DNA from: a virus
Virus record (IMG/VR): IMGVR_UViG_3300037296_000253
Span: 1 to 21,444 of that record
DNA: 21,444 nucleotides
Direction: 5' to 3' (one strand)
The notes beneath the pieces are model-generated. The model ran no database searches. It worked only from the letters and a program-made list of their open reading frames with translations, and was not told the origin of the DNA. How positions within the stretch are numbered: position 1 is the stretch's first letter; each line of letters starts with the position of its first letter. The translations under genes were made by a program, and so were the position numbers. Below, piece by piece: positions 1 to 21,444 of this stretch.

Positions 1-109
1 TTGATGCGTTAAATTCCGCAAGTTGCGGAATATGACCGTTTTAGCACTGCCTGGGTATCGTTTGCTTGAACGGCTCAATCTAAAAAGGGTCTGCCCTCAC
101 TGGGGAAAC
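1..109. mobile_element. Right tip of an A-type element lying upstream of the window
   Basis: This stretch matches the last ~110 bases of element A (9957-10067) and of dA (17963-18073), including a 19-bp palindrome at 13-31, and it ends at the attachment core at 110. It is therefore the right end of another element in the same tandem array. No gene is supported in it; the short forward ORF running through is an accidental reading of element-end DNA. Confidence 0.8.
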
Positions 110-133
110 ATCTATTCGACAATGTGCAGGTGG
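110..133. other. Attachment-like core, junction 0
   Basis: First of six copies of an invariant 24-bp sequence beginning ATCTATTCGACAATG. It is followed by GTGG, then T or C, then CGGCT, and in most copies ACTTCACTAGCA. It separates an A-type right end from the left end of element A. Recurrence exactly at every boundary between otherwise different units marks it as the site-specific recombination site. The half-sites ACAT and ATGT flank a 10-bp centre at 108-125. Confidence 0.8.
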
Positions 134-351
134 TCGGCTACTTCACTAGCAAAGAAATGCTTAAATTTCGCTTTCGACCGCCGATGCTCAGGCAAGGGTA
201 ATCAAGGGATTTAAGGATAAGGATTAAGGACAGAACAGAGTCATGCCAACAGGGTTCTTAGTATTAGCCACAGAGGTAGTCAAAAAAACAGCTCTGTAGC
301 CCTCTGATAGCGCGGGTCTACGCCTCAAAACACTAATGCACACAGGGAGCG
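134..351. other. Element A left end, no gene
   Basis: No coding region is supported. The stretch holds the common left end of A-type elements (compare 16786-17003), a purine-rich A/T-rich tract near 205-235 with repeats of the type GGATTAAGGA, and the terminator of the polymerase gene at 282-301. The purine-rich tract is a plausible melting region, but nothing in the sequence proves that. Confidence 0.5.
282..301 (-). terminator. Terminator of the element A polymerase gene
   Basis: On the minus strand GGCT-ACAG-AGCT is followed by G and seven T, about 50 bases after the polymerase stop. The stem is short. In dA (16934-16953) the G-U pair is replaced by G-C (GGCT-ACAG-AGCC), a compensated change that supports a real hairpin. 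Confidence 0.55.
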
Positions 352-1815
352 TCAAAGTTGCTCGATTTCGAGGGTCAAAAGGTATCCGGTATCGGCCTTG
401 ATTCGGCGCTCAAGTTTGGCCAAATCCGGCTTGCCGTGAACGGTTAAACCGTCATGTTGAAGTAGTGCGGCGCTGCCCGCTAATGTCTTGAGCATGGATT
501 GCAGGGCAATGGATTCAGCGCCCTGTAAAACGTGCGCCAGCTTCTCACGGCTGTTCGACTTCAAGCCGATCTCGCGCCCCGCGTCATTAACCAAAACGCC
601 AACCTTTTTCGTTTTGGCTTGGTAGTCCAGCAATACAGCCTTGCCGATTCTGCGAACGTCGCCGTAAAGATCCAGCACCAGGGGCAGGCCGCGTAATCGG
701 TCGGTGGCTTCCAGTCCCAGACGTTGCTCGATAGCCCGTTGATTCTCTTTTGGGCTCTTAGCCAGGGTTGCACCATAGACCACGGCCAATAGCAGAAACT
801 TGGCGTCATCGGTGCTAATGCCTCCGGCGCTGGCGATTTCGGCGCGGGTGGCTTTCTTGTTGTCCAGGTAATGCAGAATATGCGGCGCTTTCTCGCCTAG
901 CCGGTCAGCCATTTGGGCCAATAGCGACCAATGGCAGTTTGCTATATCTACATCGTAGCAGCCCTTCAGGGCCGCTCTACGCACTTCACCAACACACCGC
1001 TGTAGGTTGATCGAACCTTCGGCGTAAAGTCTGCCTGCGTTGCTCTCGCGGTAGGTGGTGGGCAATACAAAGCCGGGAGCGCCGGAACGCTTCGCAAGGT
1101 CAAGCATGATGGACGCCTGATCCCTCGCCATCATGGCGCGGCGCTTTGCTGCATCTTCGCCGGAGTTGGGGCCGCGGCCTGTTCTAATGGCGTCCCATAA
1201 TTCATGTGACCAACGGAAAGCGGCGGCGGGCTTTTCCCTGTCAAGATACGCCTGGGCCGCGTGGTGGAACTTGTGCAGGTTGTCGCCTTCGATTTCTACG
1301 GCGGCGTGGATTTGCTTTTTCTCGAAACGGGTATTTCTGTTTGCAGTGGTGCGCGACCGAATACCATCAACCGGCATTCTGTAAGGCGAACCGTCAGGAT
1401 TTACCAAACCTTTCTCGTTAGGTTCCAGACCGCTCAGGGCGTATTGTTTTGAGTTTTCTTGGTAGCCCATACAGATCTCCTTTGCTCTTTCAGTCATACG
1501 CCAGCCGCCGGCACTATGGCCACGCTTTGGCTTTAGATCCAGAACAAACCATTCTAGTACGGCGTTGGTTTCGGTGAATTGCTTGGCGCTACCAAACATT
1601 GCAGCCTTGCCGCGCCAGTGGATTGCGGAAACATCCTCCACGCCTGAATTATGCGTGAACCTTCCGGCGTGCATGCTCCAAAGTATAGCGGCCATACCCA
1701 TTTGATGGGCTTCATTTAGTGCGCGGAACGCTTCGGATTCGGCGCTTATGTGGCTTGTGAACGCTTTGGGCCTATATCCAAAAACAGTGTTTCTTTGAAT
1801 TTTGGGCTGTGTCAT
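352..1815 (-). CDS. Stand-alone family-A-like polymerase, probable replication protein of element A
   Basis: Product of 487 aa. The C-terminal ~210 residues carry recognisable family-A polymerase signatures. Motif A is YDVDIANCHWSLLAQM at 287-302 (D288, D290). An O-helix-like motif B runs K339 to Y347-G348, with the family spacing K-x7-YG but without the usual preceding Arg. Motif C is QHDGL at 453-457 (D455). No exonuclease domain is recognisable, and the N-terminal ~270 residues are unassigned. The ATG lies 4-5 bases after GAGAG. By position it corresponds to the quite different polymerase of element B, so it is probably the element's replication or priming enzyme (inference). Gly after the catalytic HD, where bacterial Pol I has Glu, is closer to single-subunit RNA polymerases or primases. 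The C-terminal third is duplicated in dA. Confidence 0.65.
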   Translation of the reverse strand: MTQPKIQRNTVFGYRPKAFTSHISAESEAFRALNEAHQMGMAAILWSMHAGRFTHNSGVEDVSAIHWRGKAAMFGSAKQFTETNAVLEWFVLDLKPKRGHSAGGWRMTERAKEICMGYQENSKQYALSGLEPNEKGLVNPDGSPYRMPVDGIRSRTTANRNTRFEKKQIHAAVEIEGDNLHKFHHAAQAYLDREKPAAAFRWSHELWDAIRTGRGPNSGEDAAKRRAMMARDQASIMLDLAKRSGAPGFVLPTTYRESNAGRLYAEGSINLQRCVGEVRRAALKGCYDVDIANCHWSLLAQMADRLGEKAPHILHYLDNKKATRAEIASAGGISTDDAKFLLLAVVYGATLAKSPKENQRAIEQRLGLEATDRLRGLPLVLDLYGDVRRIGKAVLLDYQAKTKKVGVLVNDAGREIGLKSNSREKLAHVLQGAESIALQSMLKTLAGSAALLQHDGLTVHGKPDLAKLERRIKADTGYLLTLEIEQL

Positions 1816-1839
1816 AATCTCTCGACTGGTCTAGGTAGC

Positions 1840-1925
1840 ACTTGCTCAGTGAAGGTAATCAGGCAGATTTGCCGTCTAGGACTGATTACCGCGAATTCAA
1901 AGAGCCCCTTAATCGGGGCTTTTTC
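1840..1925 (+). ncRNA. Predicted structured small RNA (element A copy)
   Basis: A perfect 9-bp stem, GGTAATCAG (1854-1862) with CTGATTACC (1882-1890), encloses a 19-base loop. It is followed by an intrinsic terminator, AGCCCC-TTAATC-GGGGCT plus T-run (1903-1925). The same arrangement occurs in every B element between polymerase and recombinase genes, with loop and linker substitutions but an unchanged stem and terminator. It contains no convincing ORF. It is transcribed divergently from the polymerase gene and ends facing the recombinase gene. A role in copy number or in controlling the polymerase is possible but unproven. The 5' end is uncertain; CATAAT at 1813-1818 could be the -10 element. 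Confidence 0.6.
1903..1925 (+). terminator. Intrinsic terminator of the element A small RNA
   Basis: Six-base-pair stem AGCCCC / GGGGCT with loop TTAATC, then TTTTTC. It is oriented for forward transcripts and identical in element B (11839-11860). Confidence 0.85.
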
Positions 1926-1957
1926 GTTTCTAGGTTTCGATTCTACATCAGAATTCG

Positions 1958-2581
1958 TCACGGGTGCATTTCTCCCAACTCCCTCAGCTCCACTTTTACC
2001 GAATGAACCGTGCTCGTGCTGCATCCTACGGTGGTGGCGATCTTGCGAATGCTCCACTTTGCATCAATCAGCAGGTCGGCAATTCTCTTTCGTTTCACTT
2101 CGTCGCGGGGTCTGCCGTGGTACAGCCCTTTCGCTTTGGCCTTCTCGATCCCTTGCCGCTGGCGCTCCCGTTTCAGGTCGTAATCAGTGCGGGCCATGGC
2201 TGCGGCCATATCCAGCAACATCTCGTTGATAGAGCTCAGCATCCAATCATTAGCGCCGGTCAGGACTTGGTGGGTGGTCGGCAGGTCAGCGGCAACAATG
2301 CACACGCCACGGCTGCGGATTTCAGCGCGTAGCAGCTCCCACGCCGCACGCGGTAAGCGGGTGAGCCTGTCCACGGATTCAACCAGCAGCACATCACCGG
2401 CTTGGCAGTCACTCAGCAGGCAGCGCAATTCGGGCCGGTCTGCGGTGGCTCCGCTGGCGTTCTCTGCGTAGGTTGCGGCGATCCTTTGCCCACGGTCAGC
2501 ACAGAACGCTTTAAGCTGCTCAGCGGCGCGTGTGGCGTCTTGCTCGGTGGTGCTTGCTCGCAGGTAGGCGCGAATAAACAT
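1958..2581 (-). CDS. Serine recombinase (resolvase/invertase family)
   Basis: Product of 207 aa from the ATG at 2581, the usual N-terminus for this family (MFIRAYLRAST...). An upstream in-frame extension to 2692 runs through non-coding-looking DNA. The catalytic Ser is S10 in YLRAST, and the arginine-bearing motif SVDRLTR (R72, R75) is intact. The C-terminus carries a resolvase-type helix-turn-helix (KWSIRKIATTVGCSTSTVHS). The length is that of a small resolvase rather than a large serine integrase. It therefore more likely resolves multimers or tandem copies than integrates the element, although element A has no other recombinase. It ends about 30 bases beyond the small RNA terminator and converges on it. 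In element B this slot holds a tyrosine recombinase on the opposite strand. Confidence 0.9.
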   Translation of the reverse strand: MFIRAYLRASTTEQDATRAAEQLKAFCADRGQRIAATYAENASGATADRPELRCLLSDCQAGDVLLVESVDRLTRLPRAAWELLRAEIRSRGVCIVAADLPTTHQVLTGANDWMLSSINEMLLDMAAAMARTDYDLKRERQRQGIEKAKAKGLYHGRPRDEVKRKRIADLLIDAKWSIRKIATTVGCSTSTVHSVKVELRELGEMHP

Positions 2582-2694
2582 AGCGGCTCGCTTTAGGTGG
2601 TCAGCGGCTAATCTATCGTTAAAGGTCGGCGGTAAGTAGATATAGCGGGGCGTGATTTTGTAGGTTTTGGCTATCGGCTGGGGCATGCCCAAAC

Positions 2695-2728
2695 AAAAAA
2701 GCCCCGCACAGCATCACGCAGGCGGGGC
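2695..2728 (-). terminator. Terminator of the capsid operon
   Basis: On the minus strand GCCCCGC ... GCGGGGC forms a perfect 7-bp stem with a 14-base loop, followed by six T. It lies downstream of the connector gene and upstream of the recombinase, so it separates the head operon from the recombinase. Confidence 0.85.
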
Positions 2729-2891
2729 CGGGTGCCCGTTCAGAATCGCTCTGTCGGGCTTACGTGTCGCCGGCCACAGGTATCCACTGAGGAGAAAGGC
2801 CGCACACGTTCACGGGGTTTTTTTATGTGAAGGCACTGCCCGTGTAATCCTTCCCCTGATTACCCTCTCGGGCCGCTCAGGGCGCGGAACA
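2729..2891. other. Gap between capsid operon and its terminator
   Basis: About 160 bases with no supported gene. It contains the inverted pair GTAATC (2844-2849) and GATTAC (2858-2863), a shortened echo of the stem in the small RNA. No recognisable start signal or ORF of note is present. Confidence 0.35.
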
Positions 2892-3176
2892 TCAAAACAC
2901 TTCGGCAGAACGGTACGGGTTAAGCAAAATCTGATAGGTGTGGTTTTTGTACAGCACCTCGGCACTTTGCCGTTCCCTGTTTTCAAACAGGTCAGCGGTC
3001 AGCAGCAGAATGGCGGCCTCGATTGTCTTTGGCATTGGGTCGGGGAAATCGTTGCCTAGATACTTAACAACGTGTTCTTGCGCGGCTTGCCAATATGTTT
3101 CGATCAAAACATCTTCATCAACAGAATTATCTTCGATGCGTAAATGCTGCTTAATGTCTCTCAGCTGTAGGCTCAT
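2892..3176 (-). CDS. Head-tail connector, HK97 gp6-like
   Basis: Product of 94 aa with the N-terminal pattern of gp6-like connectors (short helix LQLRDIKQHLRI, an acidic turn, then a long helix with YWQAAQEHV), matching the family's ~90-110 aa length. Connector rings sit under the portal and join the head to the tail. The start overlaps the large terminase stop as ATGA, so translation is probably coupled. It is the last gene of the head operon; no head-closure, tail or tape-measure gene follows. That would suit an element making a head finished to accept someone else's tail (inference). Confidence 0.85.
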   Translation of the reverse strand: MSLQLRDIKQHLRIEDNSVDEDVLIETYWQAAQEHVVKYLGNDFPDPMPKTIEAAILLLTADLFENRERQSAEVLYKNHTYQILLNPYRSAEVF

Positions 3177-4669
3177 GCAAAAAATACCTCTGTGTTGATT
3201 TCTACCGGATCGGCTGCGGATTGGGCGGCACCCATGGCCATGGCAAGGGCTTGAATACCATCAATGCGGCCTGTTCGGCGCGACTTGTCCAGTTTGCGGC
3301 TACCGGCTGGGTCTTTGGTGGCCACGGCATTGGCTGCGCACATGGTCAGCACTGGGTTGTTGCCGTGAGCCATGCGGGCGTTCAGCAACTCGGCCTCCAG
3401 GTGATCCAGTGCCGGGGCCATATCTTTAAAGCCCTGGCCATGTGGCACCAGCGGCAAATCCAGCCCCAACCTTTCCAGCTCTTTGCTCAGAATATCCATG
3501 CGCCAGCGGTCAAAGGCCACGGCTACCACGTCCAGATCGGCCAGAATTTCGGCCATATCCAGCGCCACCACTTCGTAATCAACGGTCGCGCCTGGGGTTG
3601 TCGTCAAATAACCTTGCGCTGCCCACACGTCATAGGGTGCGCGGTCGGTCTTTGCCCGGTCGAATAACCCTTGCTCGGGTGTCCAGAAATGGGCTTGTAC
3701 CTGCCACACGCCTTGAACTTTGCCCACGATAACCAGGGCGGTCAGGTCAGTGCGGGCCGATAGGTCGAGGCCTGCATACACGGGCCCATCAAACGGCAAT
3801 GGCTCGGCGCTGCAACTCTCCCAAACGTCAGGCGATATAAACGGGCTGTCGAGGCTCACACGCTGATTGAGTAGCAAGTTTCGGGCGGTGTTGCTCATGC
3901 TGGGCATTCGTTCGGCGCGGGCCATTTGTTCGGTTAAGTCGTCCAGGCTGCGGAATATTCCCAGTGCAGGATTGGCCGCTTCCCACGCTTCCGTGTCCAT
4001 CAGGTCGCAACCTTTCGGTGCGGCGTAAACATGGCAGACGGTGCGCGGATCTTTGGAGCGTTGAGCGTCGTCGATCCATTGGCTCAGTAGGTCGGCATCG
4101 TTCGCCGCCTGGGTCGATATGGTAATCAGCAGCGGGCTGTCGTGTGCGCCCTGGCTTGTGGTGATAGCGTCCACAAAATCCGACTGCGGGCCACGTACCT
4201 GGCCAACTTCGTCCAGAATCGCCAGCACCGGGCTCAGGCCGTGGGCGGTTTTCCCATCAGCAGCCAGTGCTCGGAACTCGGTATTCAATGGCAAGCCCAT
4301 CAGCCGTTTACCGCTGGGCATAATGCGCACCAGGCCGGAAAGCTCGGGTGATAGTTGAACCATCTTCGCCGCCAGGTTAAAAACGAGGGCGGCTTGGTCA
4401 CGGCTCATGGCACCGGATACCAGTTGAGCGTTTTGTTTTGCTTCGGGGCCCACCAGGTGCACCAGCAGAATGGCGGCGATTAGCGCGGTTTTTCCGTTCT
4501 TCCTGGCCAGCGACAAAATGGCGCGGCGGGTGCCTTTGGGGTTGTCGTAAATCGCTTTGATAAAATCAACCTGAAACGGTGCCAACTCTAGCGGCCTGCC
4601 CACTCCGGCACCTTCCGGCGTCACGCAGTAGCGGGTTATAAACCGGCACGCCTTTTCGCCTCTGGTCAC
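3173..4669 (-). CDS. terL: Terminase large subunit, HK97 type
   Basis: Product of 498 aa, the ATP-driven DNA packaging motor and nuclease. ATPase motifs: Walker A ARKNGKT (55-61), Walker B ILDE (151-154) and a coupling segment ITISTQA (182-188). RNase-H-like nuclease aspartates: D302 in AGLDLS, D387 in AFDRW and D470 in GRIDG. All expected residues are present and the length is normal, so the protein looks functional. The GTG start overlaps the small subunit stop as GTGA. Together with the HNH gene this suggests cos-type cleavage as in HK97-like phages; I could not locate a cos site. Confidence 0.95.
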   Translation of the reverse strand: MTRGEKACRFITRYCVTPEGAGVGRPLELAPFQVDFIKAIYDNPKGTRRAILSLARKNGKTALIAAILLVHLVGPEAKQNAQLVSGAMSRDQAALVFNLAAKMVQLSPELSGLVRIMPSGKRLMGLPLNTEFRALAADGKTAHGLSPVLAILDEVGQVRGPQSDFVDAITTSQGAHDSPLLITISTQAANDADLLSQWIDDAQRSKDPRTVCHVYAAPKGCDLMDTEAWEAANPALGIFRSLDDLTEQMARAERMPSMSNTARNLLLNQRVSLDSPFISPDVWESCSAEPLPFDGPVYAGLDLSARTDLTALVIVGKVQGVWQVQAHFWTPEQGLFDRAKTDRAPYDVWAAQGYLTTTPGATVDYEVVALDMAEILADLDVVAVAFDRWRMDILSKELERLGLDLPLVPHGQGFKDMAPALDHLEAELLNARMAHGNNPVLTMCAANAVATKDPAGSRKLDKSRRTGRIDGIQALAMAMGAAQSAADPVEINTEVFFA

Positions 4670-5124
4670 TGCATCGTTCTCGGAATCAATTCATCATCCT
4701 GCAAGGCATCACGGGCGCGGGTTTCCAGTTCGGAACCGTTGCGAATGTCGCGGGATTTGCCAACGGTGCTAACTGCATCAACCTTGAGTTGCCGGGCCAG
4801 TGCCAGGGCGCGGCGGGTGGCCTTGTCCAGCAGGGCGCAAGCGGGGTTAGTCGTGCCACCAACAACCATTCCATTGCGGTCGATGTGTGATTCGATGTGT
4901 GCCATATCGCCGTAGGCTCTTGCCAGGTGGCTGGCTAAAATTAAATCGGCATCGTTCCAGGTGTCACGCGGGCGGGCCATGACAATGGCATTCCATAGGG
5001 GCCGGTCTTGCTTGCGCACGGTGACGAACTTGGGCGGCGCAATCGGGCCAAGGGCTGCGGATTGAATCGCGGTTACGGCAGCTTTGGCGCTGTCGGCTCT
5101 GTCTCTTTTGGGTGTTGGTTTCAT
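4666..5124 (-). CDS. terS: Terminase small subunit, P27-like
   Basis: Product of 152 aa from the ATG at 5124; a TTG at 5136 would add four residues but has no better ribosome site. The basic N-terminus and the helix ARPRDTWNDADLILASHLARA resemble P27-family small terminases, which recognise the packaging site and load the large subunit. It lies immediately before the large subunit gene. The packaging specificity of the element would be set here, and a satellite-specific small subunit would let it package its own DNA in preference to helper DNA (inference). Confidence 0.85.
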   Translation of the reverse strand: MKPTPKRDRADSAKAAVTAIQSAALGPIAPPKFVTVRKQDRPLWNAIVMARPRDTWNDADLILASHLARAYGDMAHIESHIDRNGMVVGGTTNPACALLDKATRRALALARQLKVDAVSTVGKSRDIRNGSELETRARDALQDDELIPRTMQ

Positions 5125-5176
5125 AGGTGTTACCAATAAAAAAGGACTGAATCAGCGGTTTTTGCCGTTTCAGTTC

Positions 5177-5488
5177 CTAGTGATTCCAATGGTGGTTTGC
5201 GTCGAGAGGGCGTCCTCGAACGTCACAGCCGGCACTTGATGCTTTGCCCATGCTAACGGCAGTCTTTCGGCTATGGCATGGTGTGCAAAGGCTCTGCAAG
5301 TTGTGGCGGCTGTTGTCGTCGTCATAGTCGGCGCGGCTGTCAACGATGTGATCCACCTGATTGGCTGGGGTTACATAGCCCATCAGCCGGCAGTCGGCAC
5401 ACAGCGGCTCCTCTGCCAGCACTTGCTCACGCAGACGACGCCATGCGGCGCTATTGAGTGGTAGTGTTCGCTTCTTGGGTTCGTACAT
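5177..5488 (-). CDS. HNH endonuclease, HK97 gp74-like
   Basis: Product of 103 aa starting at the ATG at 5488, seven bases after GAGGGG; a TTG further upstream is less likely. It shows the zinc-knuckle HNH layout: C30-x2-C33, D46-H47, N63 and C68-x2-C71-H72. HNH proteins of this class sit next to terminases and assist cos cleavage in HK97-type phages. The first 38 bases overlap the portal gene. In transcription order it lies between portal and small terminase, whereas classic HK97 maps put terminases first. Confidence 0.9.
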   Translation of the reverse strand: MYEPKKRTLPLNSAAWRRLREQVLAEEPLCADCRLMGYVTPANQVDHIVDSRADYDDDNSRHNLQSLCTPCHSRKTAVSMGKASSAGCDVRGRPLDANHHWNH

Positions 5489-6620
5489 CGTCCAGCCCCT
5501 CAATCGTTGGCATGTTCTCTATCTGTCGGGCCTCGCTTTTCAGCATCCATCCGTCAGCAATGGCACGCTCATAGAATTGGGCGCGGGTTAGGCTATCGCC
5601 TCGCAGCAGACCTTCCACGTTATGCTCGACAAAGAACCGGCTAGGGTCATTAATCAACACACGGTTAATGGCCTGCTCCCATGCGACCAGGTGCCGGCGC
5701 AGAGTGTTGGTGACAAAGAACCTCGCCAGCTCCACCACGTTGGAATAGTTCGCGGCTTCCATATCAGCGACCATTACCGGCGGCACTCGAAACAGGCGGC
5801 AACATTCCACAATGGAAAGGCGGCGGGCGGCGATCCAGTCGGCATCCTCAAGGGTCATTGAAACGGTCTTGAATTGGCCACCTTGCGGTAATACAGCCGT
5901 TTTGCCGTGGTTGCCGACACCGGCCTGCCCACTTGCCCACGAATCGCGGATTTGTGCGGCCTGCTCTTTGGTGGTGCCTGGGGGCATCTCGATAACGCCT
6001 GATAGCTTGGTTCCCTGCTCGAACATCTTGGCGCCGTGTGTGCGCTCTGCCAGCGCCAAACCTATGGTGTCGCGTGCCACTTGAATGGGTGAACGTCCGA
6101 TAATTCCATCATCAGAATGGTATTTGACGTGCAGCACTTCATCAGCCAGCAGCCGCTTGGTGTTGCCGCCATCGTCTACCACGTCATAAAGCAACTTGCC
6201 TTTGGCCGTTTTCAGGATCGTCACACGGTCAGGGTGAAGCGGTAGCAGGGCTTCCGGTCGTCCGGCATTGTCACGGACTATCTCGGCATAAGCGTTGCCC
6301 CTCAGCAGCAAATGACGCTGTAGTTGTTCCCGAAACTCTAAAGCTGTCTGGTAATCGTTGGGCGCGTCATGCAGCAGCCGGTACAAGGGTTCGCCGGTCG
6401 CCTTTTCGCGGCCTGTTGCGGTCTTCTCGTACAGGTTCAACGGCAAGCTGCCGACGGTTTCTGATATGGCAGCGACACAGGCATAAACGGCGCTGATACT
6501 CTCGGCGCTTTCGGTGTTGACCATTACGCCAGCAGACTCGGCAGCGGTGGCCAGGTTGCTGTAATAGGTATCAAACGCCGGTGTATTGTTGCGCTGTTCA
6601 CGTTTAAAGGGCCACTTCAT
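5451..6620 (-). CDS. Portal protein, HK97 gp3-like
   Basis: Product of 389 aa from the ATG at 6620. GGAGG lies seven bases upstream, whereas the in-frame GTG at 6626 is only one base from it. The ATG overlaps the protease stop as ATGA. The N-terminal region (SISAVYACVAAISETVGSLP) and the LLRGNAYAEI / PLHPDRV segments are typical of HK97-family portals, the dodecameric ring through which DNA enters the head. Length is normal for the family and there is no sign of damage. Confidence 0.95.
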   Translation of the reverse strand: MKWPFKREQRNNTPAFDTYYSNLATAAESAGVMVNTESAESISAVYACVAAISETVGSLPLNLYEKTATGREKATGEPLYRLLHDAPNDYQTALEFREQLQRHLLLRGNAYAEIVRDNAGRPEALLPLHPDRVTILKTAKGKLLYDVVDDGGNTKRLLADEVLHVKYHSDDGIIGRSPIQVARDTIGLALAERTHGAKMFEQGTKLSGVIEMPPGTTKEQAAQIRDSWASGQAGVGNHGKTAVLPQGGQFKTVSMTLEDADWIAARRLSIVECCRLFRVPPVMVADMEAANYSNVVELARFFVTNTLRRHLVAWEQAINRVLINDPSRFFVEHNVEGLLRGDSLTRAQFYERAIADGWMLKSEARQIENMPTIEGLDDVRTQEANTTTQ

Positions 6621-7129
6621 CGGCACGCCTCCAGGTACAGCCTTGCCAGTGCAATGGCGGGTGATTGCTTGCCACGGACTTGGACGGTGGTGGTGTCATA
6701 GGCCGGATCGGCGGTAATGGTAATCTCGAATAGATCAACGTCGGTCAGGTGGCGGGTTTCGCCCTCCCAACTTTCGCCCTGGGCAATGAAGCCAAACGAA
6801 CAGCCGGCAACGTCACCACGGGCCACCAGAACGGGTAAATCACGGCCTAACTGTGTGTCTGGTAGGTCGATCTCGAAAGCAAGCCCCTGGGCATCTTCTG
6901 ATAGTCTCAGACTACCTGATCCCAGTCTTCCCAATAGGCTGCGGCTATCGTGTTCGTAAATGGCGCGAATTTTGGTTGCCGTATCACTGGCCAGCGTGCG
7001 CTTGAAAGCACCAGGCCGGATAATTTCAGAAAATCCGCCTAACTGGGTCGGTTCGTCAAAGCGGGCCGCGTACCCGTACAGGGTGCGGCCTTTGCTTGTG
7101 ACGACGCTTTCAAGGGCTCGCCGTTCCAT
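6617..7129 (-). CDS. Prohead protease, HK97 gp4-like
   Basis: Product of 170 aa from the ATG at 7129, two bases after the capsid gene stop and preceded by GGAG at a suitable distance; a longer frame to 7186 would run into the capsid gene. The catalytic His is H60 in YEHD and the Ser is S111 in CSFGF, the layout of HK97-type serine proteases. It would cleave the capsid delta domain during maturation. An acidic ITADPAYDTT segment near the C-terminus is also family-typical. Confidence 0.92.
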   Translation of the reverse strand: MERRALESVVTSKGRTLYGYAARFDEPTQLGGFSEIIRPGAFKRTLASDTATKIRAIYEHDSRSLLGRLGSGSLRLSEDAQGLAFEIDLPDTQLGRDLPVLVARGDVAGCSFGFIAQGESWEGETRHLTDVDLFEITITADPAYDTTTVQVRGKQSPAIALARLYLEACR

Positions 7130-7131
7130 GA

Positions 7132-8346: not shown

Positions 8347-8360
8347 TTTGTCACCTAATA

Positions 8361-8386: not shown

Positions 8387-8402
8387 GTAATAGGCTCACG
8401 CT

Positions 8403-13082: not shown

Positions 13083-13271
13083 TTATGCTTCGGCTTGCTG
13101 CTTCTTCAATTCTCTGTCAGCCCATTTCAACGACTGATCTCGTGCCACTTTGCCGGCGCTGATTACTTCGCCAGTTCTCTGCCTGAATGCCTTAACGGCG
13201 TCTTCCAACTTGTCGCGGTCTTCCTGGGTGATGTGGATGGTTAGGCTTTTCTTCACTTTCGTTGTGGTCAT
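13083..13271 (-). CDS. Small ribbon-helix-helix DNA-binding protein (B copy 1)
   Basis: Product of 62 aa. Residues 1-59 are identical to the element A protein; only the tail (AEA) differs. The strand-helix-helix layout and the basic N-terminus (TTTKVKKSL) fit an RHH dimer that inserts its strand into the DNA groove. AGGGG lies eight bases before the ATG, and the upstream region carries overlapping palindromes. As the one accessory protein shared by full and minimal elements, it probably serves the elements' own regulation or maintenance rather than capsid formation. Confidence 0.75.
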   Translation of the reverse strand: MTTTKVKKSLTIHITQEDRDKLEDAVKAFRQRTGEVISAGKVARDQSLKWADRELKKQQAEA

Positions 13272-13288
13272 GCTTACGCCCCTGTCAG

Positions 13289-13311
13289 TATCTTATAAAC
13301 AAGATATATCT
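13289..13311. promoter_or_regulatory. RHH operator region (B copy 1)
   Basis: TATCTT-ATAAAC-AAGATA (13289-13306) and the perfect 10-mer palindrome AGATATATCT (13302-13311) overlap. On the minus strand TTGAAC further upstream could be the -35 element. The element A equivalent keeps the symmetry with substitutions. Copies lie at 16636-16658 and 21295-21317. Confidence 0.55.
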
Positions 13312-13414
13312 GATAGAGTTTAGGTTCAACCTGTTTCGGCTCAGCACTGCCTGGGTATCGTTTGCTTTAACGGCACGGCTCAATCTGAAAAGGGTCTGCC
13401 TCCACTGGTGGAAC

Positions 13415-13438
13415 ATCTATTCGACAATGTGCAGGTGG
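13415..13438. other. Attachment-like core, junction 2 (B1/B2)
   Basis: The 24-bp core between two B copies. Here ACAT and ATGT symmetrically flank the 10-base centre CTATTCGACA. This B/B junction is what integration of a second B circle at an existing B end would leave. Confidence 0.8.
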
Positions 13439-13668
13439 CCGGCTACTTCACTAGCATGGACTTTTTTGACGTTCGGACACTTTGCAGGATCGGCCATGGA
13501 TATGCACCGGATATACCCCCCCAGATGCACCCCGAATCAGGGCCAGGAATACACCGGAATCAGCATCCCAGAATGGGGCTCTCCTACTGTAAACCCGGTT
13601 AGAGACGAAAGTTGTTTATATTCAAACATTTAAGACACCTTTTTTTACCCGATAGTTAGCTTATGCAA

Positions 13669-14937
13669 CTATTTTACAGGGCAGTCAAAACCAGTCTCAC
13701 GGCGGTACTCTCGGGCCATGATTTCAGACAGCAATTCCGCGTGCTTTTTGGCCACAATAAACGAATCGTGAACGGGTAAAATTGCAGTCTCTTGCTTCAC
13801 AAACTCGGCGATTATCCGGCCTGCTATTCGGGCATCTCGGTATTGCACGCGTAACGCTTGGCCGGGCTTATTGAACGCTGCGGCAATCGGCTTGTTTGCA
13901 CTCAGGAACGCGGCCACGGCTTCGGTAACGTCGATGTCTGGGCTTAGCGGGGCGAACGCATCCCATAGGCAGGCGGGGCGCTTAGGCGGACTTTGGCGGC
14001 GATCTAGTGGCAGTGTTTGCCACAGTTCCAACTTGTGCCGGTATTGGTGCCAGGCTTCCAGCAGGCGCGGATTCTGTCGGGATTGAAGGTGCTGAATTGC
14101 TTTTAACGGGTTGTCGTCATACAGCAGTTGTAAAAAAACCAGCTTGGCCACCTCACGCGGCACGCCTGGCAGGGTGTACGGATCGGCGTTGAGCGGGTAT
14201 TGCTGGCCAGCGTCGGCGTACATCATGCGGGCGTGCATGGCGGCGTAGTCCAGTTCAGCCACCGGCTCAAGATTGATAAACAAGCGGCTGCGCTCTGCTT
14301 TGCTCAAGTTCTGGGCTTGGTGATACCACCGGCCACCCTGGTTCCAGTCCTGATTAAACACCCGTTTAACTTGCGGGCTCGGCAGGTGTTGCCCGTCCAG
14401 GTGCACATCGGTGTTCATCAGCAGGCGATTAAGGCGCTTTACGGGCGGCTCAAGTGAGAGAAGGACACGCGCTCCGGTTGTTTTCTGCGGCTGGCCTTTG
14501 CTGTCGCGCAATTCGATAACGTGGCGTAGCTCGGGCGCGATGTCCGGCGCTTCTAGCGGGTCGAGTCGGTCAGCCAGCGCAGGCAGCGGTCGCACTTCGG
14601 TACAATGGCCGCCGCCTGGCCGTTGGGACGCGATTGCCTGGGTAATCAGGCCAGCAGCTTGCAGCGTGTCCAGAATTGCCGGTACGGGGTTTTGGTTTGA
14701 AGTGCTGCGGGTTATCAGCAGGCATTTACCCCATCGCATACAGTGCGCCAGGTTAACGAAAAGGGTCTCGGCGGTTTCGATAAACAGCACGCGGCGATGT
14801 AGCTTTTTGACGTGGCCGGTCTGCTTCATTAGCTCGGGAACTTGCAACGCCAGGTTTCGGCAGCGTGCGTTTTTACTCTTATCGCGCCAGTGATTTGCGT
14901 AGTGGTGGCCGGTCTTAGTGCGTTGTAGAGCCTGCAT
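13669..14937 (-). CDS. Family-A-like polymerase (B copy 2)
   Basis: Identical in sequence to the 422-aa protein of copy 1, with motif A D230, O-helix R261/K265/Y273 and motif C HDSF intact. The leader hairpin, upstream palindrome and leftward terminator are also preserved, so this copy should be as active as the first. Confidence 0.7.
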   Translation of the reverse strand: MQALQRTKTGHHYANHWRDKSKNARCRNLALQVPELMKQTGHVKKLHRRVLFIETAETLFVNLAHCMRWGKCLLITRSTSNQNPVPAILDTLQAAGLITQAIASQRPGGGHCTEVRPLPALADRLDPLEAPDIAPELRHVIELRDSKGQPQKTTGARVLLSLEPPVKRLNRLLMNTDVHLDGQHLPSPQVKRVFNQDWNQGGRWYHQAQNLSKAERSRLFINLEPVAELDYAAMHARMMYADAGQQYPLNADPYTLPGVPREVAKLVFLQLLYDDNPLKAIQHLQSRQNPRLLEAWHQYRHKLELWQTLPLDRRQSPPKRPACLWDAFAPLSPDIDVTEAVAAFLSANKPIAAAFNKPGQALRVQYRDARIAGRIIAEFVKQETAILPVHDSFIVAKKHAELLSEIMAREYRRETGFDCPVK

Positions 14938-15110
14938 TTTTTGCCCATCAATTTGGGCAGGCGCGGAATTTAATCAATAGCAGGGCTTGTCAATTCAGCT
15001 TAAATTAGCCAGTATCGGCCAATAACGGTGTACCGATAGTACACGGAAAAAAGCGGTTACAGCCGCTGCCGTGTTGCCTATCAATTCGCTGTTTATGCTA
15101 AACTTATCCA

Positions 15111-15207
15111 AGTTTCGCGCCTGCTTAGTAGTGAAGGTAATCAGACAGATTTCGTCGTCTATCACTGATTACCGCGATTTCAAAGAGCCCCTTAATCGGG
15201 GCTTTTT
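15111..15207 (+). ncRNA. Predicted structured small RNA (B copy 2)
   Basis: Same sequence as copy 1: stem halves at 15136-15144 and 15165-15173, terminator stem at 15186-15203. Confidence 0.65.
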
Positions 15208-15386
15208 CCGTTTCTATGTTTCGAGTCTACATCAGAATTAATCACGGGTGCAGCAAGCCAGATTGCACGCGCCAACCACAATGCCATGTATACCCCTTGT
15301 ATATCTTATACACCTTGTATAACCTGCAACTGTTCGCCTTTTAGCCAGAACCCGAACAGTTAGCAATCTCAGCAGGAGTACAGGCG

Positions 15387-16034
15387 GTGCCACACAACAA
15401 CTTTGATCTATTCGACAACGAGCGGCCAACCACTGAAACCCGAACAGTTGAACCGGAATTGTCGATTCTGGGCGGTTCTCGTGTGGCTAACGATGTGGCG
15501 CGGGGTCGAAAGTATTTATCGCGTGATGAAGTTATGGCGCTGGTGAAGGCAGCAAAGAAGAACCGGCACGGCTCCAGGGACTCGCTTATGATCCGGCTGG
15601 CCTATGAACACGGGCTGCGGGTGTCGGAACTGGTGAATACTCGGTGGCAGCACCTAGACCTGTCTGGCCACACGTTCAGCGTCAGCAGGGCTAAGGGCAG
15701 CATTGATTCTACGCACCCGCTGCAAGGTGACACCGTGCGGGCCATAAAGAAGTTTCAGCGCGAACTCAGCCAGTCCAGCGGTCTTATGTTCACCAACGAG
15801 CGCGGCGCTCCTGTGTCGGTCGATGGGTTCCGGCGTATGTTCGGCAGGTTATCCGAGAAGGCGCTCGGCACGGTCTGGAACCCCCACGCCTTGCGTCATG
15901 CCTGCGGCGTCCACCTGGTCAACTCCGGCACCGGCATTCGTCAAATACAGTCGTACATGGGCCATTCCAATATTCAGAATACTGTCGTTTACACCCAGTT
16001 GAGCGCAGCGGCGTTTGACCATATCAAAATGTGA
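15387..16034 (+). CDS. FimB-like tyrosine recombinase (B copy 2)
   Basis: Identical to copy 1, with all catalytic residues (R78, K103, H167, R170, H193, Y202). The core-like 13-mer inside the early codons lies at 15406-15418. Three intact copies in one array would give a dosage effect unless the gene is autoregulated. Confidence 0.92.
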   Translation: MPHNNFDLFDNERPTTETRTVEPELSILGGSRVANDVARGRKYLSRDEVMALVKAAKKNRHGSRDSLMIRLAYEHGLRVSELVNTRWQHLDLSGHTFSVSRAKGSIDSTHPLQGDTVRAIKKFQRELSQSSGLMFTNERGAPVSVDGFRRMFGRLSEKALGTVWNPHALRHACGVHLVNSGTGIRQIQSYMGHSNIQNTVVYTQLSAAAFDHIKM

Positions 16035-16150
16035 TCCTGTCCATGGCAGCGGCTTACGGCGCTTTGCGATTTCAACTTTCTTCAGGTTTTATCAGGTTCA
16101 AACCCCATCAAACCCTATCAAATCCCACCATGCTGGTGCGCACGTCTGAC

Positions 16151-16287
16151 TGCGTACCTTTGCTGCGTACCAGGGCCGTGTACCAATTTGAAATCTTGCC
16201 GCCGTTTGCCAAGTTCAGCGGGCAAAATGCTAACTATTGCTAAGAGGCCAGTTCGTACCAACAGTTCGTACCAACAGTTCGTACCAG
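16151..16287. repeat. 13-bp iteron triplets (B copy 2)
   Basis: Iterons begin at 16151, 16164, 16177 and at 16249, 16262, 16275, as in copy 1; the phased 10-bp repeats lie just upstream. Confidence 0.7.
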
Positions 16288-16359
16288 GCGCAAACCCCAC
16301 CAAGCCAGTAAGCGGGTGAGCTGCTCACGGTTGAGTGTTCCGGTAAGATGGGTATACAT
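16240..16359 (-). CDS. 39-aa small protein (B copy 2)
   Basis: Same frame and ribosome site (AGGAG) as in copy 1. Identity of the copies gives no independent support for it being a gene. Confidence 0.4.
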   Translation of the reverse strand: MYTHLTGTLNREQLTRLLAWWGLRLVRTVGTNCWYELAS

Positions 16360-16429
16360 GGTCGGCGCTCCTATGGTTGCCGATGGTGTCACGGCTCCGG
16401 CTTGCTCGAACAAGCGCGGGGCCACTTTT

Positions 16430-16618
16430 TTATGCTTCGGCTTGCTGCTTCTTCAATTCTCTGTCAGCCCATTTCAACGACTGATCTCGTGCCACTTTGC
16501 CGGCGCTGATTACTTCGCCAGTTCTCTGCCTGAATGCCTTAACGGCGTCTTCCAACTTGTCGCGGTCTTCCTGGGTGATGTGGATGGTTAGGCTTTTCTT
16601 CACTTTCGTTGTGGTCAT
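16430..16618 (-). CDS. RHH DNA-binding protein (B copy 2)
   Basis: Identical 62-aa protein to copy 1, with the operator palindromes at 16636-16658. Confidence 0.75.
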   Translation of the reverse strand: MTTTKVKKSLTIHITQEDRDKLEDAVKAFRQRTGEVISAGKVARDQSLKWADRELKKQQAEA

Positions 16619-16761
16619 GCTTACGCCCCTGTCAGTATCTTATAAACAAGATATATCTGATAGAGTTTAGGTTCAACCTGTTTCGGCTCAGCACTGCCTG
16701 GGTATCGTTTGCTTTAACGGCACGGCTCAATCTGAAAAGGGTCTGCCTCCACTGGTGGAAC

Positions 16762-16785
16762 ATCTATTCGACAATGTGCAGGTGG
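16762..16785. other. Attachment-like core, junction 3 (B2/dA)
   Basis: The 24-bp core joining a B right end to an A-type left end. Downstream the usual CGGCTACTTCACTAGCA reads CGGCTCCGGTACTAGCA, the only junction with that variant, so dA's left end differs slightly from A's. Confidence 0.8.
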
Positions 16786-16933
16786 TCGGCTCCGGTACTA
16801 GCAAAGAAATGCTTAAATTTCGCTTTCGACCGCCGATGTTCAAGGGAAGGTATTCAAGGGATTTAAGGATAAGGATTAAGGACAGGACAGAGGTAAGCAA
16901 ACAGGGTTCTTAGTATTAGCCACAGAGGTAGTT

Positions 16934-16953
16934 AAAAAAACGGCTCTGTAGCC
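16934..16953 (-). terminator. Terminator after the dA polymerase remnant
   Basis: Minus strand GGCT-ACAG-AGCC followed by G and seven T; the counterpart of 282-301 with a stronger stem. Confidence 0.55.
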
Positions 16954-17003
16954 CGCTGATAGCGCGGGTCTACGCCTCAAAACACTAATGCACACAGGGA
17001 GCG

Positions 17004-17534
17004 TCAAAGTTGCTCGATTTCGAGGGTCAAAAGGTATCCGGTATCGGCCTTGATTCGGCGCTCAAGTTTGGCTAAATCCGGCTTGCCGTGAACGGTCAGG
17101 CCGTCATGTTGAAGTAGTGCGGCGCTGCCCGCTAATGTCTTGAGCATGGATTGCAGGGCAATGGATTCAGCCCCCTGTAAAACGTGCGCCAGCTTCTCAC
17201 GGCTGTTCGACTTCAAGCCGATCTCGCGCCCCGCGTCATTAACCAAAACGCCAACCTTTTTCGTTTTGGCTTGGTAGTCCAGCAATACAGCCTTGCCGAT
17301 TCTACGAACGTCGCCGTACAGATCCAGCACCAGGGGCAGGCCGCGTAATCGGTCGGTGGCTTCCAGTCCAAGACGTTGCTCGATAGCCCGTTGATTCTCT
17401 TTTTGGCTCCTGGCCAGGGTTGCACCGTAGACCACGGCCAATAGCAGAAACTTGGCGTCATCGGTGCTAATGTCTCCGGCTTGGTACCGGCGGCGGCTGT
17501 CGGGTGTGCCTGGTAGTCTGGTTATGTTGCTCAT
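17004..17534 (-). pseudogene. In-frame fusion of zinc-ribbon start to polymerase C-terminus
   Basis: A 176-aa open frame. The first 22 residues are the start of the zinc-ribbon protein (MSNITRLPG...YQAGDI) and the rest is the element A polymerase from S334 to its end. The join lies at a 13-bp sequence (17468-17480) present, with one mismatch, at both deletion ends in A (816-828 and 9234-9246). Motif B (K-x7-YG) and motif C (HDG) remain, but motif A with its metal-binding aspartate is lost, so polymerase activity is not expected. The frame stayed open, with a few amino-acid differences from A, so the fragment may still be expressed and could interfere with the full-length protein. Confidence 0.75.
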
Positions 17535-17695
17535 TGCTGCGGCTCCTGAATGGCCTGGGCCATTTCTTCGGTGGCCTGTTCGGCTCTGTCCATATTGGCC
17601 TTGAGCTGCCAAGCGTAATTGGCCAGAACGTGGGGAGCTAGTTCTTCGCCGCCTTCGTTCACTGATTTCAGGTAAACCATTAACATTGAAATCAT
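17531..17695 (-). pseudogene. Remnant of a gene from a third element variant
   Basis: An open frame of 54 residues from an ATG at 17695, ending in the same MAQAIQEPQQ-type tail as the element A RHH protein and overlapping the next start as ATGA. The preceding residues (VYLKSVNEGGEELAPHVLAN, then YAWQLKANMDRAEQATEE) do not match the RHH protein. The frame continues upstream into the palindrome region without a good ribosome site, so it is probably the 3' end of a different gene that occupied the RHH slot in dA's parent. Confidence 0.5.
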
Positions 17696-17719
17696 GGCCT
17701 GGGTCTGGGTGGTGAGCTT

Positions 17720-17802
17720 TGGACATTTTGTCCATTGCTATCCCGCCGAAACGATCACCAAGGGTTTCGTGGGTTGGCGCTTTGGGCTGGACATTTTGTC
17801 CA
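17720..17802. repeat. Two TGGACATTTTGTCCA palindromes retained in dA
   Basis: At 17720-17734 and 17788-17802, matching the second and third copies of element A. Retention of these, with both ends, in a 1.3-kb derivative suggests they are needed in cis. Confidence 0.7.
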
Positions 17803-18073
17803 TCCGAAAAATCGCGACCTTCACGACCGCCCGCTGGCGCGTGTGCGATGGGCAGCGTTCTGTTTTCACTGTCGCTTGTAGACAGTGAGCTCACAGGCGC
17901 GTGTGCAGTGTTACGGATTGCTACTTCGTCGGGCGTTGATGGTGCGGCTAGCTGGTAGAGGATTGATGCGTTAAATTCCGCAAGTTGCGGAATATGACCG
18001 TTTTAGCACTGCCTGGGTATCGTTTGCTTGAACGGCTCAATCTAAAAAGGGTCTGCCCCCACTGGGGAATGTT
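17803..18073. other. dA right end, non-coding
   Basis: Matches the element A right end from 9797 to 10067, including the 19-bp palindrome (17975-17993). No gene is supported here. Confidence 0.6.
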
Positions 18074-18097
18074 ATCTATTCGACAATGTGCAGGTGG
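18074..18097. other. Attachment-like core, junction 4 (dA/B3)
   Basis: Same core and upstream flank as junction 1, joining an A-type right end to a B left end. Confidence 0.8.
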
Positions 18098-18327
18098 CCG
18101 GCTACTTCACTAGCATGGACTTTTTTGACGTTCGGACACTTTGCAGGATCGGCCATGGATATGCACCGGATATACCCCCCCAGATGCACCCCGAATCAGG
18201 GCCAGGAATACACCGGAATCAGCATCCCAGAATGGGGCTCTCCTACTGTAAACCCGGTTAGAGACGAAAGTTGTTTATATTCAAACATTTAAGACACCTT
18301 TTTTTACCCGATAGTTAGCTTATGCAA

Positions 18328-19596
18328 CTATTTTACAGGGCAGTCAAAACCAGTCTCACGGCGGTACTCTCGGGCCATGATTTCAGACAGCAATTCCGCG
18401 TGCTTTTTGGCCACAATAAACGAATCGTGAACGGGTAAAATTGCAGTCTCTTGCTTCACAAACTCGGCGATTATCCGGCCTGCTATTCGGGCATCTCGGT
18501 ATTGCACGCGTAACGCTTGGCCGGGCTTATTGAACGCTGCGGCAATCGGCTTGTTTGCACTCAGGAACGCGGCCACGGCTTCGGTAACGTCGATGTCTGG
18601 GCTTAGCGGGGCGAACGCATCCCATAGGCAGGCGGGGCGCTTAGGCGGACTTTGGCGGCGATCTAGTGGCAGTGTTTGCCACAGTTCCAACTTGTGCCGG
18701 TATTGGTGCCAGGCTTCCAGCAGGCGCGGATTCTGTCGGGATTGAAGGTGCTGAATTGCTTTTAACGGGTTGTCGTCATACAGCAGTTGTAAAAAAACCA
18801 GCTTGGCCACCTCACGCGGCACGCCTGGCAGGGTGTACGGATCGGCGTTGAGCGGGTATTGCTGGCCAGCGTCGGCGTACATCATGCGGGCGTGCATGGC
18901 GGCGTAGTCCAGTTCAGCCACCGGCTCAAGATTGATAAACAAGCGGCTGCGCTCTGCTTTGCTCAAGTTCTGGGCTTGGTGATACCACCGGCCACCCTGG
19001 TTCCAGTCCTGATTAAACACCCGTTTAACTTGCGGGCTCGGCAGGTGTTGCCCGTCCAGGTGCACATCGGTGTTCATCAGCAGGCGATTAAGGCGCTTTA
19101 CGGGCGGCTCAAGTGAGAGAAGGACACGCGCTCCGGTTGTTTTCTGCGGCTGGCCTTTGCTGTCGCGCAATTCGATAACGTGGCGTAGCTCGGGCGCGAT
19201 GTCCGGCGCTTCTAGCGGGTCGAGTCGGTCAGCCAGCGCAGGCAGCGGTCGCACTTCGGTACAATGGCCGCCGCCTGGCCGTTGGGACGCGATTGCCTGG
19301 GTAATCAGGCCAGCAGCTTGCAGCGTGTCCAGAATTGCCGGTACGGGGTTTTGGTTTGAAGTGCTGCGGGTTATCAGCAGGCATTTACCCCATCGCATAC
19401 AGTGCGCCAGGTTAACGAAAAGGGTCTCGGCGGTTTCGATAAACAGCACGCGGCGATGTAGCTTTTTGACGTGGCCGGTCTGCTTCATTAGCTCGGGAAC
19501 TTGCAACGCCAGGTTTCGGCAGCGTGCGTTTTTACTCTTATCGCGCCAGTGATTTGCGTAGTGGTGGCCGGTCTTAGTGCGTTGTAGAGCCTGCAT
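18328..19596 (-). CDS. Family-A-like polymerase (B copy 3)
   Basis: Identical 422-aa protein to copies 1 and 2, with palm motifs and the leader hairpin (19601-19618) intact. Confidence 0.7.
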   Translation of the reverse strand: MQALQRTKTGHHYANHWRDKSKNARCRNLALQVPELMKQTGHVKKLHRRVLFIETAETLFVNLAHCMRWGKCLLITRSTSNQNPVPAILDTLQAAGLITQAIASQRPGGGHCTEVRPLPALADRLDPLEAPDIAPELRHVIELRDSKGQPQKTTGARVLLSLEPPVKRLNRLLMNTDVHLDGQHLPSPQVKRVFNQDWNQGGRWYHQAQNLSKAERSRLFINLEPVAELDYAAMHARMMYADAGQQYPLNADPYTLPGVPREVAKLVFLQLLYDDNPLKAIQHLQSRQNPRLLEAWHQYRHKLELWQTLPLDRRQSPPKRPACLWDAFAPLSPDIDVTEAVAAFLSANKPIAAAFNKPGQALRVQYRDARIAGRIIAEFVKQETAILPVHDSFIVAKKHAELLSEIMAREYRRETGFDCPVK

Positions 19597-19769
19597 TTTT
19601 TGCCCATCAATTTGGGCAGGCGCGGAATTTAATCAATAGCAGGGCTTGTCAATTCAGCTTAAATTAGCCAGTATCGGCCAATAACGGTGTACCGATAGTA
19701 CACGGAAAAAAGCGGTTACAGCCGCTGCCGTGTTGCCTATCAATTCGCTGTTTATGCTAAACTTATCCA

Positions 19770-19866
19770 AGTTTCGCGCCTGCTTAGTAGTGAAGGTAAT
19801 CAGACAGATTTCGTCGTCTATCACTGATTACCGCGATTTCAAAGAGCCCCTTAATCGGGGCTTTTT
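19770..19866 (+). ncRNA. Predicted structured small RNA (B copy 3)
   Basis: Same sequence as copies 1 and 2: stem halves at 19795-19803 and 19824-19832, terminator at 19845-19866. Confidence 0.65.
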
Positions 19867-20045
19867 CCGTTTCTATGTTTCGAGTCTACATCAGAATTAA
19901 TCACGGGTGCAGCAAGCCAGATTGCACGCGCCAACCACAATGCCATGTATACCCCTTGTATATCTTATACACCTTGTATAACCTGCAACTGTTCGCCTTT
20001 TAGCCAGAACCCGAACAGTTAGCAATCTCAGCAGGAGTACAGGCG

Positions 20046-20693
20046 GTGCCACACAACAACTTTGATCTATTCGACAACGAGCGGCCAACCACTGAAACCC
20101 GAACAGTTGAACCGGAATTGTCGATTCTGGGCGGTTCTCGTGTGGCTAACGATGTGGCGCGGGGTCGAAAGTATTTATCGCGTGATGAAGTTATGGCGCT
20201 GGTGAAGGCAGCAAAGAAGAACCGGCACGGCTCCAGGGACTCGCTTATGATCCGGCTGGCCTATGAACACGGGCTGCGGGTGTCGGAACTGGTGAATACT
20301 CGGTGGCAGCACCTAGACCTGTCTGGCCACACGTTCAGCGTCAGCAGGGCTAAGGGCAGCATTGATTCTACGCACCCGCTGCAAGGTGACACCGTGCGGG
20401 CCATAAAGAAGTTTCAGCGCGAACTCAGCCAGTCCAGCGGTCTTATGTTCACCAACGAGCGCGGCGCTCCTGTGTCGGTCGATGGGTTCCGGCGTATGTT
20501 CGGCAGGTTATCCGAGAAGGCGCTCGGCACGGTCTGGAACCCCCACGCCTTGCGTCATGCCTGCGGCGTCCACCTGGTCAACTCCGGCACCGGCATTCGT
20601 CAAATACAGTCGTACATGGGCCATTCCAATATTCAGAATACTGTCGTTTACACCCAGTTGAGCGCAGCGGCGTTTGACCATATCAAAATGTGA
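20046..20693 (+). CDS. FimB-like tyrosine recombinase (B copy 3)
   Basis: Identical to copies 1 and 2, with the full catalytic set. The internal core-like 13-mer lies at 20065-20077. Confidence 0.92.
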   Translation: MPHNNFDLFDNERPTTETRTVEPELSILGGSRVANDVARGRKYLSRDEVMALVKAAKKNRHGSRDSLMIRLAYEHGLRVSELVNTRWQHLDLSGHTFSVSRAKGSIDSTHPLQGDTVRAIKKFQRELSQSSGLMFTNERGAPVSVDGFRRMFGRLSEKALGTVWNPHALRHACGVHLVNSGTGIRQIQSYMGHSNIQNTVVYTQLSAAAFDHIKM

Positions 20694-20809
20694 TCCTGTC
20701 CATGGCAGCGGCTTACGGCGCTTTGCGATTTCAACTTTCTTCAGGTTTTATCAGGTTCAAACCCCATCAAACCCTATCAAATCCCACCATGCTGGTGCGC
20801 ACGTCTGAC

Positions 20810-20946
20810 TGCGTACCTTTGCTGCGTACCAGGGCCGTGTACCAATTTGAAATCTTGCCGCCGTTTGCCAAGTTCAGCGGGCAAAATGCTAACTATTGCT
20901 AAGAGGCCAGTTCGTACCAACAGTTCGTACCAACAGTTCGTACCAG
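20810..20946. repeat. 13-bp iteron triplets (B copy 3)
   Basis: Iterons begin at 20810, 20823, 20836 and at 20908, 20921, 20934, matching copy 1. Confidence 0.7.
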
Positions 20947-21018
20947 GCGCAAACCCCACCAAGCCAGTAAGCGGGTGAGCTGCTCACGGTTGAGTGTTCC
21001 GGTAAGATGGGTATACAT
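20899..21018 (-). CDS. 39-aa small protein (B copy 3)
   Basis: Same frame and AGGAG ribosome site as in copies 1 and 2. Function unknown and coding status uncertain. Confidence 0.4.
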   Translation of the reverse strand: MYTHLTGTLNREQLTRLLAWWGLRLVRTVGTNCWYELAS

Positions 21019-21088
21019 GGTCGGCGCTCCTATGGTTGCCGATGGTGTCACGGCTCCGGCTTGCTCGAACAAGCGCGGGGCCACTTTT

Positions 21089-21277
21089 TTATGCTTCGGC
21101 TTGCTGCTTCTTCAATTCTCTGTCAGCCCATTTCAACGACTGATCTCGTGCCACTTTGCCGGCGCTGATTACTTCGCCAGTTCTCTGCCTGAATGCCTTA
21201 ACGGCGTCTTCCAACTTGTCGCGGTCTTCCTGGGTGATGTGGATGGTTAGGCTTTTCTTCACTTTCGTTGTGGTCAT
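21089..21277 (-). CDS. RHH DNA-binding protein (B copy 3)
   Basis: Identical 62-aa protein to copies 1 and 2, with operator palindromes at 21295-21317. Confidence 0.75.
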   Translation of the reverse strand: MTTTKVKKSLTIHITQEDRDKLEDAVKAFRQRTGEVISAGKVARDQSLKWADRELKKQQAEA

Positions 21278-21420
21278 GCTTACGCCCCTGTCAGTATCTT
21301 ATAAACAAGATATATCTGATAGAGTTTAGGTTCAACCTGTTTCGGCTCAGCACTGCCTGGGTATCGTTTGCTTTAACGGCACGGCTCAATCTGAAAAGGG
21401 TCTGCCTCCACTGGTGGAAC

Positions 21421-21444
21421 ATCTATTCGACAATGTGCAGGTGG
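21421..21444. other. Attachment-like core, junction 5 at the window edge
   Basis: Complete 24-bp core after the right end of B3, ending on the last base of the window. What follows, another element or host DNA, is not visible. Confidence 0.8.

Follow-up and report, generated by a model that had tools for sequence, protein, structure and literature searches.

How do elements of quite different size and gene content come to stand head to tail behind one and the same short sequence? The question is raised by the metagenomic IMG/VR virus record IMGVR_UViG_3300037296_000253, which was analysed whole (21,444 bases; hereafter, the window). Six identical copies of a 24-bp core, ATCTATTCGACAATGTGCAGGTGG, all on the plus strand, bound a capsid-coding unit (A), three copies of a minimal unit (B) and a deletion derivative (dA). 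We lean, with moderate confidence, towards A being a plasmid-like relative of the capsid-forming phage-inducible chromosomal islands (cf-PICIs) and having a single recombination site in common with B, a minimal replicon.

Three kinds of units joined at one core

The core copies are found at 110..133 (core 1), 10068..10091 (core 2, the A-B junction), 13415..13438 (core 3, B-B), 16762..16785 (core 4, B-dA), 18074..18097 (core 5, dA-B) and 21421..21444 (core 6). The core-to-core spacings of 9958, 3347, 3347, 1312 and 3347 bp given in an earlier note on this DNA are exact to the base. The same note placed a further A-type end ahead of the first core, and such a right end is indeed there (1..109, plus strand), with bases 1-107 99% identical to positions 9957-10063.

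Homology at the junctions exceeds the 24 bp of the core. A 25-bp block, AGCACTGCCTGGGTATCGTTTGCTT, is located about 67 bp ahead of each core. At the left ends of A and B the core is followed by 18 conserved bases, [T/C]CGGCTACTTCACTAGCA, of which a single one differs, being T at the left ends of A and dA, and C at those of B. In the window, the arm 5' of each core matches the right end of the unit before it, and the base directly 3' matches the unit that follows, which places the exchange in or beside the core. In another metagenome record, L010, the right arm is a mosaic, indicating that exchange within the arm occurs as well.

The earlier claim of mixed arrays is supported, and mixing of units is not peculiar to this contig: mixed junctions are found across three records. 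L010 contains a B-A junction, and in L072 the core links A to a left end of another type, C, which carries a PriCT_1 Rep. Record L012 is a chimera of the A packaging module and a B-type Rep. A-A joints are seen in L007, L009 and L076, where the core region is altered and contains a 61-bp piece of C. As side observations, the switch point in L012 is a common stretch of about 123 bp between Rep and the upstream recombinase region, and the A right end in L072 carries a 333-bp insert (808-1140) that by eye resembles the final part of a replication gene from a phage. Pattern matches in L071/L075 and L077-L079 were dissimilar to the units and were judged to be due to chance.

Two other identities of the core were discarded. 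The attachment region folds no better than shuffled sequences (z +0.9 to +1.4), and for this lack of a single-strand fold an integron attC, as in integron cassette arrays, was rejected; a cos site was rejected on the dissimilarity of the core to the ends of mEp390 (HK97-group cos region) and to the cf-PICI relatives. A comparison of the core with dif, made by eye only, revealed no evident dif.

A capsid and packaging module on a plasmid-like backbone

Unit A (110..10067, 9,958 bp) had been proposed to be a capsid-coding satellite. Searches with Pfam and PHROG profiles bear this out, recovering a complete HK97-type set of capsid, protease, portal, connector and packaging genes, and no confident match of any A protein to tail families. 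All A genes described here are on the minus strand. The module consists of a head-tail connector (2892..3176; PF05135), the HK97-type terminase large subunit, TerL (3173..4669; PF20441, PF03354), the terminase small subunit, TerS (4666..5136; phrog_5601, E 1.1e-32), an HNH endonuclease (5177..5503; PF01844), a portal protein (5451..6626; PF04860, E 1e-104), a prohead protease (6617..7186; PF04586) and an HK97-fold major capsid protein (7132..8346; PF05065, TIGR01554). This gene content supports the view of A as a tail-less, capsid-coding element of satellite type.

The same module is found in six Halomonadaceae genomes, at about 66-75% nucleotide identity, and the satellites in these genomes contain the closest relatives of the A capsid protein (70-72% amino acid identity). 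TerL is 80-81% identical to its counterparts in Halomonadaceae satellites and 65% identical to those of HK97-group phages. The host, to judge by these matches and by the homologs of the A Rep and the B recombinase, is probably a Halomonadaceae (Halomonas-type) bacterium. Repeats of tRNA-Pro, about 10.4-10.9 kb apart, bound the islands L045, L046 and L048, and L050 has an integrase, AlpA, a C4 RNA and a tRNA-Ser, near which lies an 18-bp sequence that is repeated at a distance of about 10.8 kb. The published cf-PICI gene set comprises capsid, protease, portal, connectors, TerS, TerL and HNH, with no tail genes (PMC10690885), and the organisation of the Halomonadaceae satellites is the cf-PICI layout of that study.

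The rest of A is of another kind. Profile searches detected neither a tyrosine integrase nor AlpA in A, both of which are present in L050. A Rep-type protein of 487 amino acids (352..1815) is predicted to have a family-A DNA polymerase fold in residues ~144-487: the structure model (predicted local distance difference test, pLDDT, 86.6) contains the Pol I palm fold, and its best match is a family-A DNA polymerase (Z 15.4, root mean square deviation 4.6, 293 residues aligned). It is accompanied by a small serine recombinase of the resolvase/invertase type (1958..2692, 244 amino acids; PF00239, E 1.4e-26) with a C-terminal helix-turn-helix. Homologs of this Rep are found in Halomonas, Erwinia and Polaromonas. 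The Rep and serine recombinase pair recurs on a 7,129-bp Erwinia contig, which its 95-bp end repeats show to be circular, and Polaromonas plasmids contain homologs of the Rep together with proteins annotated as members of recombinase families.

Between the recombinase and the connector, A contains the Proteo-phage-1 RNA RF03044 (2807..2887; 47.6 bits, gathering threshold 42). This conserved block after the connector had been considered as a cos or packaging site, and was dropped as such once it was recognised as the Rfam family. The RNA also follows the connector directly in three chromosomal islands of cf-PICI-like type, L045 (8070-8151), L046 (12654-12737) and L050 (13884-13969); this position, in A as in the islands, may tie an RNA with no assigned function to satellites. 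The remaining genes of A encode a 263-residue protein (8509..9300), to which the profile searches assigned no function and which has a possible zinc ribbon, and a small protein of 72 residues (9297..9515). Within the right region of A (window 9577-9728), the palindrome TGGACATTTTGTCCA is repeated.

Unit dA (16762..18073, 1,312 bp) encodes a 296-residue fusion (17004..17894, minus strand) that ends in Rep residues 334-487 and has lost the first polymerase motif; it has neither a whole Rep nor any recombinase. It is a deletion derivative, as had been claimed, and not a fresh one of the A in this window: DNA identity to A is 95.8% in the left part, which holds the Rep residues and in whose Rep codons 10 differences are synonymous and 2 nonsynonymous, and 99.7% over 369 bp at the right end. 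Most likely, dA stems from a sibling A lineage.

A minimal element with a plasmid-type recombinase

The three B units (10068..13414, 13415..16761 and 18074..21420; 3,347 bp each) are 100% identical. As the earlier note had it, B is a minimal element, with a replication-type protein and a single-domain tyrosine recombinase. The Rep-type protein (10322..11590, minus strand, 422 amino acids) matches phrog_4756 (E 4e-45); PolA-like motifs were seen in it by eye only, and its structure model was unusable (pLDDT 39.5). The recombinase (12040..12687, plus strand, 215 amino acids; PF00589, E 6e-37) consists of the catalytic domain alone and a short N-terminal stretch. Homologs, 57-65% identical, are mostly found on small, plasmid-like Halomonadaceae contigs of 5.6-17 kb, next to Rep-type genes (Rep3 was confirmed in L061). 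Four of these contigs have end repeats of 77-123 bp, which show that they are circular. A search of viral_contigs with the recombinase returned no match. These relationships support the assignment of B as a plasmid-like minimal element.

Directly upstream of the recombinase gene lies a 13-6-13 inverted repeat (11982..12013, plus strand), which is conserved upstream of the plasmid homologs and is likely to be the site of this enzyme. Two observations are suggestive, though no proof, of an action of the enzyme on the core as well. A second copy of the initial 13 bp of the core lies within the beginning of the recombinase gene (12059..12071, plus strand), and sharing of at least 13 bp with the core arose in 3 of 2000 simulations; the motif CTGTTCG is contained in the cores of L010 and L072, as it is in the arms of the B inverted repeat.

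The small protein of B (13083..13271, minus strand, 62 amino acids) is identical to that of A over the first 59 residues, yet the DNA differs at synonymous sites. Each B copy also has three tandem, iteron-like 13-bp units, CAGTTCGTACCAA (window 12902-12939 and the equivalent positions). One of the circular Halomonadaceae contigs, L060 (17,027 bp), contains two inverted copies of a small tyrosine recombinase, and is possibly a cointegrate.

How the array may have arisen

The anatomy of the units, their homologies and the mixed junctions in three records are observed; a replication function for the Rep-type proteins, the identity of the core-acting enzyme, an extrachromosomal state, dependence on a helper and the host itself are inferred. 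In the reading that we favour, the units would belong to one plasmid-like satellite family, most likely of Halomonadaceae, with common ends (the core and the right arm), a common small protein and exchangeable replication genes. A would combine a cf-PICI-type capsid and packaging module with a backbone of a PolA-fold protein and a serine resolvase in place of integrase and AlpA; B would be a minimal replicon whose tyrosine recombinase is of plasmid type, and dA a passenger. Recombination at the 24-bp core would join and resolve the units, giving rise to homo- and hetero-multimers that might be carried as extrachromosomal cointegrates, as a chromosomal array, or as both. A would build its own DNA-filled heads and obtain tails from a helper phage. 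The likeliest enzyme to act on the core is the tyrosine recombinase of B, which would serve A in trans. The earlier note had inferred one recombination system for all units; that a single known enzyme serves all of them is not supported, A having a serine recombinase and B a tyrosine recombinase.

Several observations weigh against this reading. Neither A nor B was found as a closed circle, and the core is not recognisable in either the plasmid relatives or the cf-PICI relatives. The better candidate site of the B recombinase lies away from the core. Homologs of the A Rep are found on the chromosomal contigs L018, L019 and L021 as well, and the lack of host flanks could be due to trimming of the IMG/VR records.

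The strongest rival is the view of the earlier note, namely, that satellites entered, in succession, a host attB whose core is the 24-bp repeat, with a common integrase acting in trans. The same orientation and clean ends of the units, as well as hetero-junctions in three records, fit such a chromosomal array, which would work like the CTX/RS1/TLC arrays at dif, and the nearest relatives of the capsid module are themselves chromosomal islands. Nevertheless, no host flank or attB was seen in the junctions examined, and the core is absent from genome_contigs (exact 22-mer) and from 275 Halomonadaceae genomes (21-mer with up to two mismatches). The core search of viral_contigs was likewise blank; no near matches were found among phages and plasmids, and a search for a Halomonadaceae host with the B Rep, the core and the small protein gave no match. 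Moreover, A has no integrase, and the relatives of the B recombinase are mostly on plasmid-like contigs. The claim of a stack at a chromosomal attachment site is thus not upheld, and we regard this origin as doubtful, if still a serious competitor. Plasmid-like multimers are favoured because both backbones have plasmid relatives, and an extrachromosomal multimer or cointegrate is no less likely than a chromosomal array.

A bolder version of the plasmid-like reading is a two-level community, in which A would live as a plasmid and B, a third as long, would supply the common recombinase, ride in hetero-multimers and be packaged three to an A head, as a satellite of a satellite. We consider this unlikely.

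The window could also be a mixed head-to-tail concatemer of the lytic cycle, possibly packaged by the A terminase. PICMIs (phage-inducible chromosomal minimalist islands) are packaged as concatemers (PMC10803314), the terminase is of HK97 type, and three lengths of B add up to 10,041, close to the 9,958 of one A, but a length ratio so near to an integer is expected by chance about once in 20 cases. Concatemers of a single replicon would not link units of different kinds, recombination or end ligation is required for an exchange at one 24-bp site, and no packaging site was found in the core, which has no similarity to the HK97-group cos region. An origin of this kind appears quite improbable.

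As for assembly, the identity of the B copies means that short reads could neither order nor count the units, and the near-identical right ends of A and dA make the A-B and dA-B junctions not independent. The record, moreover, stops on the final base of core 6, the very point at which the A and B left ends diverge, as is typical of an unresolved assembly branch point. We therefore accept the pairwise joints of the reported order A-B-B-dA-B and leave the exact order and copy number as not established. That separate circular replicons were merely joined by the assembler at their common ends, for which the identity of the B copies, the end of the record on a core and an order that short reads could not resolve speak, is the least probable explanation of all. 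In the A-B, B-dA, B-A and A-C joints, the bases to the left and right of a 24-bp core are each specific to their unit and near enough to be covered by a single read; directly outside the core, the right arm of A differs from the left end of B; and mixed junctions recur in other samples.

Comparison with known systems

Mixed arrays are known for the filamentous phages of cholera, and we found no description of them for tailed-phage satellites in the open-licence papers searched. In Vibrio cholerae, CTXphi, RS1 and TLCphi form head-to-tail arrays of full phage and minimal satellites that are served in trans at dif (PMC4246890). The likeness lies in the stacking of full and minimal elements at one recombination site; those arrays, however, are of filamentous phages and rely on host XerCD and dif, whereas the units described here have capsid genes of tailed-phage type and recombinases of their own.

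PICMIs resemble our units in being very small marine satellites with tandem DNA, but they have integrase and AlpA, lack capsid genes and use full-size helper capsids (PMC10803314), whereas A has capsid genes and B shows no AlpA match. The Marinitoga plasmid pMP1 is, like the proposed state of A, a plasmid-state element moved in phage particles, and differs in having no capsid or terminase genes (PMC11921389). The small Halomonadaceae plasmids L057-L064 are similar to B in their recombinase (57-62% identical) and the conserved inverted repeat upstream of it, but have other Rep genes and lack the A/B core.

The closest known elements are cf-PICIs, which share with A the gene set and, in the Halomonadaceae elements so organised, the sequence similarity of TerL and the capsid protein. 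cf-PICIs are known as chromosomal islands; A differs from them in the absence of tyrosine integrase and AlpA, in its PolA-fold Rep and serine resolvase, and in its presence in mixed head-to-tail arrays. The lack of integrase and AlpA is the reason why we keep A apart from the standard cf-PICIs. If the proposed reading is true, a capsid-coding relative of cf-PICIs on a plasmid-like backbone, recombining with minimal and defective partners at a common site, would show how satellites swap replication modules and how they merge with plasmids. Two ideas would become testable, namely, that a mixed set of elements may depend on a single recombinase, and that the heads made by a satellite may also package its small partners.
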